In this document: positions 16,210 to 63,173 of the stretch, piece after piece
Position numbering within the stretch: the first letter of the stretch is position 1
Layout: every line of letters begins with the position of its first letter
Source: Porphyrobacter sp. CACIAM 03H1
GTDB lineage: Bacteria > Pseudomonadota > Alphaproteobacteria > Sphingomonadales > Sphingomonadaceae
Direction: 5' to 3'
Length of the DNA: 64,000 nt
Assembly (NCBI RefSeq): GCF_002215495.1
Contig: NZ_CP021378.1
Span: 248,001-312,000, forward strand
The notes under the pieces: generated by a model
What the model saw: only the letters and a program-made list of their open reading frames with translations
Told to the model about the DNA's origin: nothing
Database searches by the model: none
Program-made: the position numbers and the translations under genes

Positions 16210-16304
16210 CCGTTCGTGCTGAGCCTGTCGAAGCACTGTCCTTCTTCTTCCGACTGACGATCGAGGAAGAAAAAGCAGCCCTTCGACAAGCTCCGGGCGG
16301 ACGG
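16210..16304. repeat. Dispersed palindromic element, subtype A, between lptB and rpoN
   Basis: The left end CCGTTCGTGCTGAGCCTGTC is mirrored at the right end (GACAAGCTCCGGGCGGACGG). The core contains CTTCTTCTTCC/GGAAGAAAAAG, so the whole unit can fold into one long hairpin. Similar copies lie at 55065-55180 and 63083-63173. Confidence 0.8.
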
Positions 16305-21062: not shown

Positions 21063-21130
21063 CCGTTCGTGTCGAGCGTAGTCGAGACACATGGCGTAGC
21101 GGCCTCTCGACTTCGCTCGAGGCGAACGGG
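21063..21130. repeat. Dispersed palindromic element, subtype B, between prfA and prmC
   Basis: Begins CCGTTCGTGTCGAGCGTAGT and ends with the near-mirror CTTCGCTCGAGGCGAACGG, about 68 bases, foldable into one hairpin. Close relatives lie at 45899-45966 and 57584-57684. It separates two genes that are usually tightly coupled. Confidence 0.78.
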
Positions 21131-45898: not shown

Positions 45899-45966
45899 CC
45901 GTTCGTGTCGAGCGAAGTCGAGACACCCCGCTTGCATGCCTCTCGACGACGCTCGAGGCGAAGGGG
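45899..45966. repeat. Dispersed palindromic element, subtype B, upstream of the E1-alpha gene
   Basis: CCGTTCGTGTCGAGCGAAGT at the left and CGACGCTCGAGGCGAAGGGG at the right can fold together. It lies in the 99-base gap between the SDR stop and the E1-alpha start, so it is probably transcribed within the operon and may affect expression of downstream genes. Confidence 0.78.
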
Positions 45967-52488: not shown

Positions 52489-53429
52489 TGCGCTGGCTCG
52501 ATCACCGCGAGACGATGCCCGAGCCCTTGCGGGGCGCCGTGATCGCGCTCGGCAATTTCGACGGGTTCCATCGCGGGCACCAGGCGGTTGCGGGCGAGGC
52601 GATCCGCTGGGCACACGCCGAGGGCCGCCCCTCGATCATCGCCACCTTCGATCCCCACCCGGTGCGCTTCTTCCGCCCCGATGTGCCGCCCTTCCGCCTG
52701 ACGACGCTGGAGCAGCGGCAGGAATTGTATCTGGCGGCAGGCGCGACCGCGATGCTGGTGTTCCACTTCGACGCGGAACTCGCCGGGACGAGCGCGGAGG
52801 ATTTCATCCAGCGCATCCTGATCGACCGCTTCGGCGCACACGGCGTGGTCACTGGGGGTGACTTCACCTTCGGCAAGGGCGCGAAGGGCAATGTCGATCT
52901 GCTGCGCACCCTCGGCGGCGAGCTGGGGCTGCAATCGCGGGTCGTGGACGCGGTGGCCGAGGGCGGAGAGGTCGTCTCCTCCAGCCGCATCCGCCAGGCC
53001 CTGCGCGACGGCGACCCGCAGGAGGCCGCGCGGTTGCTCACCCGGCCCTTCGCGATCCGCGGCATCGTCGAACATGGCGACAAGCGCGGGCGCACCATCG
53101 GCTATCCCACTGCCAATCTCGGCGTGGAGAATTACCTGCGCCCCAAATACGGCATCTACGCCGTGACGGGCCGCATACTCGCCACGGGCGAGGTGCTGAA
53201 GGGCGCCGCCAACATCGGCATCCGCCCGCAGTTCGAACCGCCCAAGGAGCTGCTCGAGCCCTATTTCTTCGACTTTGCCGGCGACCTCTACGGTCAGGAG
53301 ATCGAGGTGGCCTTCCACCACTACCTGCGCGGCGAGGCGAAGTTCGACAGCCTCGAGGCGCTGATCGCCCAGATGGACAAGGATTGCGCCGAGGCGCGGC
53401 GGTTGCTTTCCTCGTCATTGCGAGCGTAG
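52488..53429 (+). CDS. ribF: Bifunctional riboflavin kinase / FAD synthetase
   Basis: Phosphorylates riboflavin to FMN and adenylates it to FAD. The 313-residue protein has the N-terminal FAD synthetase part with LGNFDGFHRGHQ and FDPHPVRFFRP, GDFTFGKGAKGN, SSSRIRQAL, and the C-terminal kinase with GYPTANLGVENYLRPKYGIYAV. The last few codons and the stop lie inside a palindromic repeat beginning at 53411, so its C-terminus probably was rewritten by repeat insertion. Confidence 0.96.
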
Positions 53430-53498
53430 CGCGGCAATCTAGGGCGACACGCGATGCGCTCTGGATTGCCGCGCGGCTCCGCCGCTCGCAATGACGAG
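53411..53498. repeat. Palindromic element at the 3' end of ribF
   Basis: CTCGTCATTGCGAGCG at the left is mirrored perfectly by CGCTCGCAATGACGAG at the right; inside, GCGGCAATC pairs with GATTGCCGC. It is about 88 bases long and could fold into one long hairpin. The ribF stop (TAG at 53427-53429) lies in its left arm. It is a different family from the CCGTTCG elements. Confidence 0.85.
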
Positions 53499-53539
53499 CC
53501 TTTGCAGTTGCGGGATGAAAGGCTAAGGCCCCGCGCGAT

Positions 53540-56500
53540 ATGTCCGACGAACCCACGCAGCGCGATTACCGGGACACCGTCTTCCTGCCGAAGACCGATT
53601 TCCCCATGAAGGCCGGCCTCCCCCAGAAGGAGCCGGGCATTGCCGCGCGCTGGGAAGCGATTGGCCTCTATGACGCGCTGCGCAAGAGCCGGAAGGGCCG
53701 GGAAAAGTTCATCCTCCACGACGGCCCGCCCTACGCCAATGGCGACATGCATATCGGCCATGCGCTCAACCACATCCTCAAGGACATGGTCTGCCGCACC
53801 CAGAACCTGCTGGGCCGCGATGCGCCTTACGTGCCGGGCTGGGACTGCCACGGCCTCCCCATCGAATGGAAGGTCGAGGAGCAGTACCGCAAGGAGAAGA
53901 AAGCCAAGCCCGTCCTCACCGGCAAGGGGCGTGACGAGGCGGCGGTGAAGGCCTTCCGCGACGAGTGCCGTGCCTATGCGCAGCACTGGGTCGACGTGCA
54001 GCGCGGGCAGCTGAAGCGCCTCGGCATCATGGGCGACTGGGACCACCCCTACCTCACCATGCAGAAGGAGAGCGAGGCGGTGATCGTCGCCGAGCTGCTC
54101 AAGCTGGTCGAGGCGGGGAACCTCTACCGCGGCTCGAAGCCGGTGATGTGGTCGCCCGTGGAGCAGACCGCACTGGCCGAGGCGGAGGTCGAATACGAAG
54201 ACATCACCTCGACCCAGATCGACGTGGGCTTTGAGATCGTCGAGAGCCCGATCCCCGAACTGGTCGGCGCCCACGCGGTGATCTGGACGACGACGCCGTG
54301 GACGATCCCGGTGAACCAGGCTTTGGCCTATGGGCCCGAGGTTGAGTACGCCTTGTGCTCCATAGAGTACGATTTTGCCGCTGGCCTCTTGGATCCGGAC
54401 AACCTGCCGGACGACACATCTGATCGTTCGGGACGCATTCGTCGCAAAATGATCGAGGAGATAAAGAAGTCATCTCGCAAGAGGGCGCGGTTCTTCGTGG
54501 CACGAGACCTTGTCGAGAGCTTTACAAGCCGCCTGAAAGCCGATGTGGTGAGGCAGGTCGAAGCGAAGACAATGCCTCCGAATGCATCAATAGTAGCTGT
54601 CGACATAGAGCAAACCTTTAGAGGCGCAGACCTCGCCGGCACCCTCGCCCGCCACCCGATGCACCATCTCGGCGGGTTCTACGCGGCCCCGCGCCCGCTG
54701 CTTCCCGGCGACTTCGTCACCACCGATAGCGGCACCGGCCTCGTCCACATGGCGCCCGATCATGGCGAGGACGACTTCGAGCTGTGCAAGGCGAACGGCA
54801 TCAACCCGGTCTTCGCGGTGATGGACGACGGGCGCTACCGCGACGACTGGGGCTGGCTCGGCGGCGCGGATGAGCGGCGCATGAGCGTCATCAACCCCAA
54901 GTTCAACGCGCCCGACGGCCCGATCTGCTCCGACCTCGCCGAAGCCGGCGCCCTGCTGGCGGCGAGCGCGGACTATGCGCACTCCTACCCCCATTCGTGG
55001 CGCTCCAAGGCCAAGGTGATCTTCCGCTGCACGCCCCAGTGGTTCGTGCCGATGGATCAGAAAACCGTTCGCCCTGAGCTTGTCGGAAGCGTAGCTGATC
55101 CGCAGGATCAACGGCTGTCCTTCTCTTCAACCGACGGTGCTGAAGAAAGTGCAGGGCTTCGACAGGCTCAGCCCGAACGGAGTTTGAGGGACGTAGCCCT
55201 CGCCGAGATCGCACGGGTGAAATTCATCCCCGAAAAGGGCCGCAACCGCATCGGCGCGATGGTCGAGGGCCGGCCCGACTGGGTGCTGAGCCGCCAGCGC
55301 GCCTGGGGCGTGCCGATCACTTTGTTCGTGCGGCCCGACGGCTCCTACCTGCAAGACCCCGCCGTGAACGCCCGCATCGTCGCGGCGGTGAACGCGGAAG
55401 GCATGGACGCGTGGAACAGCGCCAACAAGGCGGCCTTCCTCGGCCCGGACCATGACCCGGCAGAATTCGAGATGGTCACCGACATTCTCGACGTGTGGTT
55501 CGATTCGGGCTGCACCCATGCCTTCGTGCTTGAAAGCGGGCGCTGGCCGGACCTGCAATGGCCCGCCGACCTCTATCTCGAAGGCTCTGACCAGCATCGC
55601 GGCTGGTTCCAGTCCTCGCTGCTGCAATCCTCGGCCACCCGCGGCCGCGCGCCTTACGACCAGGTTCTCACCCACGGCTTCACGATGGATGCCAAGGGCA
55701 AGAAGATGTCCAAGAGCCTCGGCAACACGGTCGATCCCTTGAAGGTGATGGAGACCTACGGCGCGGACATCATCCGGCTGTGGGCGCTGAGCGTCGACTT
55801 CACCGAGGATCACCGCATCGGCGACGAGATCCTGAAGGGCGTCGGCGACCAGTATCGCAAGCTCCGCAACACCTTCCGCTATCTGCTCGGCGCGCTCGAC
55901 GGGTTCGTGGGCGACTGGAGCGACGCGGGCGAGCTGCCGGAGCTGGAGGTCTACGTCCTCTCGCTGCTCAGCGAGCTGGACGGGAAGCTGAAGGCGGCGG
56001 CGGAGGCCTACGACTTCAACACCTACACCCGCCTGCTGGTCGATTTCTGCAACGAGGACCTCAGCGCCTTCTTCTTCGATATCCGCAAGGACTCGCTCTA
56101 TTGCGACGGGCCGGAGAGCACCACGCGCAACGCCTATCGCACCGTGCTCGACCTGCTGTTCCACGCGCTGGTGCGCTACGCCGCGCCGGTGCTGGTGTTC
56201 ACGGCGGAGGAGGTGTGGCTCAGCCGCTATCCCGAGGATGGCGAGGCGGATGACGCGGGCCAGCGCGGCTCTGTCCACTTGCTCGAATGGCCGAGCATCC
56301 CCGGCGTCGTCGCCGACCGCGCGAAGTGGAACGCCCTCAGGGCCCTGCGCGACCAGGTCAACGAAGCGATCGAGCCGCTGCGGCGTGACAAGACCATCCG
56401 TTCGAGCCTTGAGGCCGAAGTGGTCGTCCCGGCAGCGGCCGTGCCGGACGGCATCACCGACGAACAGCTCGCCGAACTGTTCATCACCGCGACAGTCACC

Positions 56501-56632
56501 CGCGGGCAGGGCGAGGCCGTGATCGTGACCAAGACCAGCCACCACAAGTGCGGCCGCTGCTGGCGCCACCTGCCCGACGTGGCCGTCGAGGGGTCGTTGT
56601 GCACCCGTTGCGATGCGGTTGTCGGGTCATGA
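53540..56632 (+). CDS. ileS: Isoleucyl-tRNA synthetase with two insertions
   Basis: Charges tRNA-Ile and edits misactivated valine. The 1030-residue protein has HIGH (residues 71-74), KMSKS (722-726), the CP1 editing domain and a C-terminal zinc motif (CGRCWRH...CTRCD). It is about 90 residues longer than the E. coli enzyme. Two extra stretches explain most of this: roughly residues 271-360, A/T-rich with four ATA codons, in the editing domain; and residues about 509-547, the in-frame translation of a palindromic repeat (55065-55180). It overlaps lspA by four bases. Confidence 0.97.
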   Translation: MSDEPTQRDYRDTVFLPKTDFPMKAGLPQKEPGIAARWEAIGLYDALRKSRKGREKFILHDGPPYANGDMHIGHALNHILKDMVCRTQNLLGRDAPYVPGWDCHGLPIEWKVEEQYRKEKKAKPVLTGKGRDEAAVKAFRDECRAYAQHWVDVQRGQLKRLGIMGDWDHPYLTMQKESEAVIVAELLKLVEAGNLYRGSKPVMWSPVEQTALAEAEVEYEDITSTQIDVGFEIVESPIPELVGAHAVIWTTTPWTIPVNQALAYGPEVEYALCSIEYDFAAGLLDPDNLPDDTSDRSGRIRRKMIEEIKKSSRKRARFFVARDLVESFTSRLKADVVRQVEAKTMPPNASIVAVDIEQTFRGADLAGTLARHPMHHLGGFYAAPRPLLPGDFVTTDSGTGLVHMAPDHGEDDFELCKANGINPVFAVMDDGRYRDDWGWLGGADERRMSVINPKFNAPDGPICSDLAEAGALLAASADYAHSYPHSWRSKAKVIFRCTPQWFVPMDQKTVRPELVGSVADPQDQRLSFSSTDGAEESAGLRQAQPERSLRDVALAEIARVKFIPEKGRNRIGAMVEGRPDWVLSRQRAWGVPITLFVRPDGSYLQDPAVNARIVAAVNAEGMDAWNSANKAAFLGPDHDPAEFEMVTDILDVWFDSGCTHAFVLESGRWPDLQWPADLYLEGSDQHRGWFQSSLLQSSATRGRAPYDQVLTHGFTMDAKGKKMSKSLGNTVDPLKVMETYGADIIRLWALSVDFTEDHRIGDEILKGVGDQYRKLRNTFRYLLGALDGFVGDWSDAGELPELEVYVLSLLSELDGKLKAAAEAYDFNTYTRLLVDFCNEDLSAFFFDIRKDSLYCDGPESTTRNAYRTVLDLLFHALVRYAAPVLVFTAEEVWLSRYPEDGEADDAGQRGSVHLLEWPSIPGVVADRAKWNALRALRDQVNEAIEPLRRDKTIRSSLEAEVVVPAAAVPDGITDEQLAELFITATVTRGQGEAVIVTKTSHHKCGRCWRHLPDVAVEGSLCTRCDAVVGS
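54350..54625 (+). other. ileS: Compositionally atypical patch inside ileS
   Basis: This stretch of the editing domain is visibly richer in A and T than the rest of ileS and uses codons that are otherwise rare here, including four ATA Ile codons (encoding the Ile in SIEYD, EEIKK, SIVAV and DIEQ). The encoded protein is Lys/Arg/Asp-rich. Flanking CP1 sequence is normal, so this looks like an acquired or recombined segment. Confidence 0.7.
55065..55180. repeat. ileS: Dispersed palindromic element, subtype A, inserted in-frame in ileS
   Basis: The ends CCGTTCGCCCTGAGCTTGTC and GACAGGCTCAGCCCGAACGG are mirror copies. The element is 116 bases but adds a whole number of codons together with flanking bases; translation gives about 38 extra residues ending LRQAQPERS, between MDQKT and LRDVALAEIARVKF, which are normally almost adjacent. 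The frame stays open throughout. Confidence 0.85.
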
Positions 56633-57583: not shown

Positions 57584-57684
57584 CCGTTCGCCTCGAGCCC
57601 TTCGGCAGGCTCACGATGAACTGCGGACTTCGTCGTCAGTCGAGAGGCCCGGTCAGGTGTCTCGACTGCGCTCGACACGAACGG
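57584..57684. repeat. Dispersed palindromic element, mixed type, 3' of the DUF3035 gene
   Basis: Begins CCGTTCGCCTCGAGCCCTTC, ends CTGCGCTCGACACGAACGG, and contains inner CGAGAGGCC-type arms. The ends match subtype B, but the left arm carries the GGCAGGCTCA seen in subtype A. It sits between the DUF3035 gene and the convergent transporter gene. Confidence 0.75.
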
Positions 57685-63082: not shown

Positions 63083-63173
63083 CCGTTCGTGCTGAGCTTG
63101 TCGAAGCACCGTCCTTCTTGAGGCGCGCGGGGAAAAAGGAAGTGCGGCCCTTCGACAAGCTCAGGCCGAACGG
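63083..63173. repeat. Dispersed palindromic element, subtype A, between etfB and etfA
   Basis: CCGTTCGTGCTGAGCTTGTC is mirrored by GACAAGCTCAGGCCGAACGG, with a GTCCTTCTT/AAGGAAGTG inner region. Ninety-one bases long and foldable. It lies wholly inside the etfB-etfA gap (121 bases). Confidence 0.85.

Follow-up and report, generated by a model that had tools for sequence, protein, structure and literature searches.

Why does a palindromic repeat lie within the reading frame of an essential isoleucyl-tRNA synthetase? In the stretch of DNA analysed here (the window, 64,000 nucleotides of the genome G000, from a bacterium of the Erythrobacter group), ileS (53540..56632, plus strand) encodes an isoleucine--tRNA ligase of 1030 aa, recognised from its open reading frame and the TIGR00392 profile (741.8 bits, cut-off 621.4). 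At 55065..55180 (plus strand) the gene bears an imperfect palindrome of 116 nt with the ends CCGTTCG...CGAACGG, as had been proposed in a sequence-only reading of the window, and the frame 53540-56632 runs through it without a stop, also as proposed there. As RNA, the element folds into one long hairpin of -56.1 kcal/mol, compared with -38.9 (sd 3.6) for 200 shuffled sequences (z -4.74), none of which folded as well.

The element belongs to a dispersed family, here family A. Its suspected likeness to two stretches at 16210..16304 and 63083..63173 (both plus strand) was found again; both copies lie outside recognised genes, the first (L032) with no open frame of 25 or more codons on both sides and the second (L033) with only a 105-codon frame devoid of coding signature. 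The family A arm, CCGTTCGNNCTGAGCNTGTCGAAG, occurs 107 times with at most three mismatches in the 3,525,023 bases (one contig) of G000, against a single occurrence of the reversed pattern used as control, which rules out that the likeness is due to chance or confined to the ends. From an alignment of 47 of the 48 two-armed copies (one of the two in L038 was left out), the left arm reads CCGTTCG-NNCT-GAGCTTGTCGA-AGNN and leads into a core that varies, after which the right arm stands in inverted orientation; by eye, the stem bases co-vary as hairpins would (TGCT/AGCA, GGCT/AGCC, TCCT/AGGA, CCCT/AGGG). The copy in ileS carries ~24 nt of additional internal sequence, the mark of a longer subtype to which five copies located outside recognised genes also belong (L042, L045, L161, L166 and L173). 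A profile search of G000 for PF01797 (RAYT-type Y1 transposase) gave 0 matches, while the control finds PF01797 in 5 of 14 known genomes; on this search, a RAYT-driven REP was rejected as the source of family A. Over the whole window, Rfam at gathering cut-offs returned only a tRNA and the mmgR/suhB small RNA (RF00519, 31802-31875, 48.2 bits, gathering 41).

In the protein, the whole variable loop extends from WFVPMD to LRDVA and covers residues 507-548 (QKTVRPEL...QPERS; 55058..55183, plus strand). The insert had been put at ~38 residues; the loop stands, and its size is refined to 42 residues; most of the short relatives have 7-8 here, so that on balance ~34 are gained. Its flanks, described as nearly adjacent in a normal IleRS, are so in the short relatives and in the solved IleRS 8c9e, where 2 residues separate them and the insert falls in this 2-residue link (the alignment with 1ffy is less clean there), but such short turns are the minority (28 of 103 distinct loci), and a long loop other than a repeat is found in 59. 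We take the position to be between the return strand of the CP1 editing domain and the next helix of the catalytic half. Note that the AlphaFold model of this IleRS (33 close sequences) has a mean pLDDT of 55.4 and leaves the catalytic core likewise unresolved.

We compared the loop after WFVPMD among 61 genomes of the genus and 80 named contigs, mostly Erythrobacteraceae with a few Sphingomonadaceae; 119 of 130 loci were parsed, with parsers that took open frames only, and 103 distinct loci were left after dropping 16 duplicates. The loop is native-looking and long in 59, short (up to 13 residues) in 28, and made of a palindromic repeat in 16, from four families (D in 6, C in 5, A in 4 and B in 1). 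The ileS loci of Porphyrobacter sp. HT-58-2 and E. sanguineus DSM 11032 carry B and D. The loop peptide of the window recurs only where family A is present, which rules out a native insertion conserved in most relatives. The picture of a solitary insert in an otherwise fixed join has to be given up: the loop is hypervariable, several unrelated repeat families occupy it in relatives, and sites in valS, trmD, glyS and truB behave alike. A scan of the 103 genes with DNA patterns of families A to D (at most 2 substitutions) detects arms in the loop of 15 and elsewhere only in L158, where by their position they lie in the variable editing segment. The certainty of repeat identity differs by family: compared with repeats in the other fetched loci, loops of families A and B gave many hits in most cases (L001 55, L002 95, L119 54, L015 38, L027 3), and loops of families C and D gave 0-6, no better than some native loops (L062: 4). 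Those repeat loops that were folded form long hairpins, from -37 to -89 kcal/mol. Filled and empty turns are found in neighbours (C in L018 vs short in L089; A in L119 vs short in L108), and L064 has D added to the native loop type N5 that L011 carries alone. The loop of L145, whose peptide suggested family B, was rejected as such since its DNA does not match the B arms; part of it matches, on the other strand, DNA that directly precedes this ileS (L145 9936-9988), with 88.7% identity over 53 nt.

A second hypervariable segment is present in the editing domain of IleRS (window 54341-54637, residues ~268-366). Of the 103 loci, 93 were parsed for it; its length there is 25-111 residues, and it falls into 41 single-linkage clusters, one of which holds 48 loci; among the first 25 listed pairs of loci with at least 90% whole-protein identity, one has the segment type in common, and L092 and L156, 75% identical overall, have segments alike at 66%. 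The GC content falls to 0.55-0.58 in this segment. Another inverted repeat, CGTCATTGCGAGCG...CGCTCGCAATGACG, lies between ribF and ileS (53413-53500) and contains the stop codon of the ribF frame.

Elsewhere in the window's genome, the surroundings of 100 of the 107 family A arms resolve into at least 58 places (48 two-armed), 7 of which are in frame in recognisable genes, namely ileS, valS, the glyS beta gene, trmD, truB, dnaE and the gene of a 2-oxoacid dehydrogenase E2, coding being judged from the base composition of codon positions and by eye. Family B, which occupies ileS and valS loops in relatives, has two copies in the window, at 21063..21130 (CCGTTCGTGTCGAGCG...) and at 45899..45966, the latter between two minus-strand frames, directly behind the stop codon of the first (neither copy is assigned to a strand), and a single arm downstream of ileS (57659..57684, plus strand; C1:305659-305684; L225, R-only). 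Among its 49 listed places (41 two-armed), five are in frame in genes: glyS at another site, ligA, the RNase R gene, where it is a single degraded arm, and genes of an MmdA-type carboxyltransferase and a NirA-like reductase, both of which score below curated cut-offs. Most listed copies of the two families thus lie outside recognised genes.

Comparison with insert-free relatives was made for the inserts of ileS, valS, trmD, glyS and truB. Members of the genus show in-frame repeats of three to five types at a single site of valS, of trmD and of truB and at two sites of glyS, next to relatives in which the turn is short and empty. In valS (20 chosen loci, all parsed), the site after TLGWP is filled in 6 of 21 genomes of the genus, with A in G000 and, as a composite, in G036, B in G011 and G031, C in G007 and D in G016, and is a short turn in 15; in 119 valS proteins of the 120 best matches to an insert-bearing query, 56 are short and 63 carry repeats (A 32, C 16, B 6, D 6, E 3). 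For trmD, glyS and truB the loci were the best 30 of the 59-60 genomes matching an insert-bearing query. The trmD site (28 loci parsed) is short in 13 and otherwise holds E (5), A (4), B (3), C (2) or another sequence (1); glyS site 1 (29 loci, the reference gene L282 being left out) is short in 11 and holds D in 8, some of them divergent, C in 4, A in 3, B in 2 and E in 1; glyS site 3 (26 sequences) has repeats in 8 (D 5, B 1, C 1, E 1), a short turn in 9 and other long sequences in 9. In truB, of which 25 loci were parsed and read by eye, 9 carry repeats of three types (A 2, RHAELVSAS-type 5, RHPGAGRDP-type 2), the others being short or native. For family E and the two extra truB types, the recurring peptide is the sole identifying feature. 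As many of these loci are best matches to insert-bearing queries, the shares for trmD, glyS, truB and the protein sets are biased upwards, and it is the variety at one site that counts, not the share. Among solved relatives, the flanks of these sites adjoin each other in ValRS (1gax) and are separated by 4 residues in TrmD (9ue5) and by 6 in GlyRS (7yse, site 1). Besides the window's genome, G034 ranked highest in the ileS search; it likewise has family A in ileS and trmD, and differs from the window's genome in valS (empty vs A) and at glyS site 1 (A vs B in the window's genome). For trmD, one internal stop codon is reported in each of the matches in G002, G006 and G045, and the stop in G043 is the gene's own end. 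In glyS of relatives (L282-L311), the segment between LRL.L and LLDFFAD is comparable to the second hypervariable segment of IleRS: it differs greatly in sequence and length, with some versions alike across genomes (L287/L304, L292/L306) and with family A filling it in G000 and L288.

We consider it likely that non-autonomous repeats insert widely, and that essential genes retain only those insertions that keep the frame and fall in indel-tolerant turns, which would turn these places into shared landing pads. The ileS insert would then be one copy of a non-autonomous dispersed palindromic repeat, with two inverted hairpin arms around a variable core, which landed in the gene by transposition, is translated as a loop at the presumed border of the editing domain and persists because the turn accepts extra residues at a nearly neutral cost. 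More generally, resident repeats of several unrelated families would be copied by a putative machinery and inserted at many places; a landing in an essential gene would survive only if it is in frame, free of stops and in an indel-tolerant turn, the others being purged, so that the same few turns of IleRS, ValRS, GlyRS-beta, TrmD and TruB would be refilled repeatedly. The native long loops of ileS suggest that the turn tolerates length change whatever its source. The absence of PF01797 matches in G000 counts against this explanation.

The same scatter could have arisen if inserts were gained few times and then spread by recombination of synthetase genes between lineages, which we regard as unlikely. 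On a quick ileS tree, computed with the loop removed and the second hypervariable segment trimmed only in part, loop types are scattered, with 47 changes for 11 labels and with the native type N1 and short forms alternating, as such a spread would produce. Families A, B, C and D (4, 2, 5 and 6 rows) need 4, 2, 5 and 6 changes, and if only well-supported branches are considered, the minimum is 3 for A, 2 for B, 4 for C and 5 for D; these label changes may be gains, losses or allele transfers. No sister rows fall within one repeat family, and the window and G034, both with family A, stand in an unresolved fork, so that they could share one ancestral insertion.

What speaks against transfer is that the family at a site tracks, for B and less so for D, the load of repeats resident in the genome. 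Family B arms are most numerous, among 61 genomes, in G031 (76), whose ileS carries B. Family A arms number 100 in both G000 and G034, which have A in ileS, and 112 in G013, which is without a parsed ileS loop; family D arms number 26 in G055 and 20 in G016, both with D in ileS, and 29 in G001, which yet carries C. Family C arms number 17 in G001, with 7 for the reversed control in the same genome; note that the C pattern is of low complexity and that its reversed control hits the same genomes. Over 127 site-genome cells from ileS, valS, trmD and glyS site 1, the association gives p of 0.001 (A), 1e-6 (B), 3e-5 (C) and 0.003 (D) with the sites' own arms counted. After subtraction of two arms per occupied site, it gives 2e-6 (B), 0.004 (D), 0.003 (A) and 0.08 (C) by cells, and 0.0002 (B), 0.04 (D), 0.086 (A) and 0.19 (C) when each genome is taken once. 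The link between a family at these sites and a larger number of resident copies is therefore firm for B, fair for D, doubtful by genome for A and absent for C. That it is firm for B only leaves some room for transfer, and its failure for C and weakness for A by genome also count against repeated landing of resident repeats. Transfer is further opposed by the occurrence of the same family in ileS and valS of G000 (A), G031 (B), G016 (D) and G007 (C); no such match is seen in G036, whose ileS holds C and whose valS holds an A-like composite, or in G011, where B in valS accompanies a native ileS.

Repeats might instead be kept for a function, with the loop or an mRNA hairpin altering the enzyme, its expression or its recognition by phages or toxins, and the repeats serving as raw material for surface diversification; we hold this to be improbable. 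The genes hit are not random, which is a point for function and is not predicted by tolerance alone: among the listed copies, families A and B are in frame in 11 genes, 5 of which encode tRNA synthetases or tRNA-modifying enzymes, and the chance of at least 5 in 11 is 1e-6 if 2% of all genes, or 0.003 if 10% of essential genes, are tRNA-related (both shares are assumed). The strong RNA hairpin and the extreme variability of the second, non-repeat segment of IleRS go in the same direction. Between the window and G034, dN/dS is 0.195/0.389, i.e. ~0.50, in the insert (34 codons), below 1 as selection on the insert would have it, and 0.053/0.351, i.e. ~0.15, in the rest of ileS outside the variable segment; the insert is relaxed, not clearly free. 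In close relatives, however, the turn is empty or holds a different family, and the peptide is wholly different between families, which speaks against a function of the insert.

A related and quite unlikely proposal is that the repeats form a standing supply of ready-made loops that remodel the surfaces of tRNA enzymes under diversifying selection, exerted for instance by synthetase-binding phage or toxin factors. If true, such selection would account both for the convergence of unrelated repeats on shared turns in IleRS, ValRS, GlyRS, TrmD and TruB and for the fast-changing cassette that a further segment of IleRS forms.

It also appears rather improbable that landing itself is targeted, through recognition of the DNA or its surroundings at these turns by the insertion machinery, in which case the hotspots would reflect a landing bias and not survival. 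Six sites in five genes, each used by three to five repeat types, and arms elsewhere in ileS in only 1 of 103 loci are what a landing bias would give. By eye, however, the junctions vary by several codons within the loop and the empty sites inspected display no common motif; unrelated families would moreover need a common preference. Since the junctions vary in this way and since so many ileS loci (59 of 103) have native long loops, tolerance is favoured over target choice.

That the repeat is absent from the protein, through ribosome bypass or removal from the mRNA or protein, is very improbable: elements bypassed by ribosomes are stable hairpins, as is this one, but the frame is kept through the repeat in the genes parsed (by parsers that took open frames only), the listed ileS rows show no internal stop, and the gene-borne family A copies (81, 81, 81, 93, 93, 94 and 116 nt) have lengths divisible by three in 5 of 7 cases, the other two (94, 116) being in frame with their flanks, unlike the 40 non-coding copies, which spread 14/13/13 over the residues modulo three.

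Repeated landing in tolerant turns thus remains the explanation that we favour. In essential translation enzymes, mobile palindromes seem to return to a few landing pads, whose empty and differently filled versions in close relatives amount to a natural insertion-scanning experiment. Whether repeat-derived peptides alter essential enzymes, and whether the hotspots arise from target choice or from protein tolerance, can be tested in cultured strains.

Several known systems resemble these repeats in part. REPINs, mobilised by RAYTs, consist of two inverted hairpin arms forming one unit, with a Y1 transposase and a GTAG tag. Family A likewise has two inverted hairpin arms as one unit (arm pairs and paired stem changes were read by eye); it differs by the lack of a GTAG tag and of a PF01797 Y1 transposase found in G000. 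Judged on its ends, the terminal inverted repeats CCGTTCG/CGAACGG, it is like a MITE.

That repeats can lie within genes, including those of tRNA synthetases and truB, is already published: PMC3733652 lists REPs of the GTAG/CGTC superfamilies for tRNA synthetases (X. oryzae, E. lithoralis and S. alaskensis), for truB (three species), for dnaE and for the gene of a DNA ligase, and proposes flexible loops as neutral REP sites. It also mentions an RPE-1 copy in truB of R. conorii. According to this paper, REPs in genes that share a functional category sit at different positions, apart from recB of two Xanthomonas, where the position is about the same; here, in contrast, six sites are each reused by three to five repeat types. 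By the tags described in that paper, family A has neither (its 47 aligned copies begin with CCGTTCG or close to it), nor has family B in the copies read. Family D, by eye, resembles the CGTC-1 REPs as described there, being CGTC-ACCCCAGC-GAAA-GCTGGGGT with the tag, an 8-bp stem, a 4-nt loop and head-to-head pairing, but the A-T pair required at stem position 2 is missing in the arm compared.

The analogy drawn at the outset with Rickettsia palindromic elements holds in outline, a dispersed palindromic repeat being fused in frame into an essential synthetase gene. According to the available parts of PMC10969869 and PMC2229807, those elements are ~105-150 bp long, lie in frame in many conserved protein genes and also in intergenic DNA, and in guanylate kinase the element-bearing protein is translated and active. 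Family A shares with them the palindromic repeat in frame in protein genes. Compared by these partial descriptions, which do not mention site sharing, the present case differs in its hosts and in that several unrelated families occupy the same protein sites, a reuse that did not turn up in our searches of an open-access library. Overall, the observation is real and extends further than first noted: palindromic repeats in coding genes are a known kind of event, met here in a new pattern of shared landing turns in tRNA enzymes.
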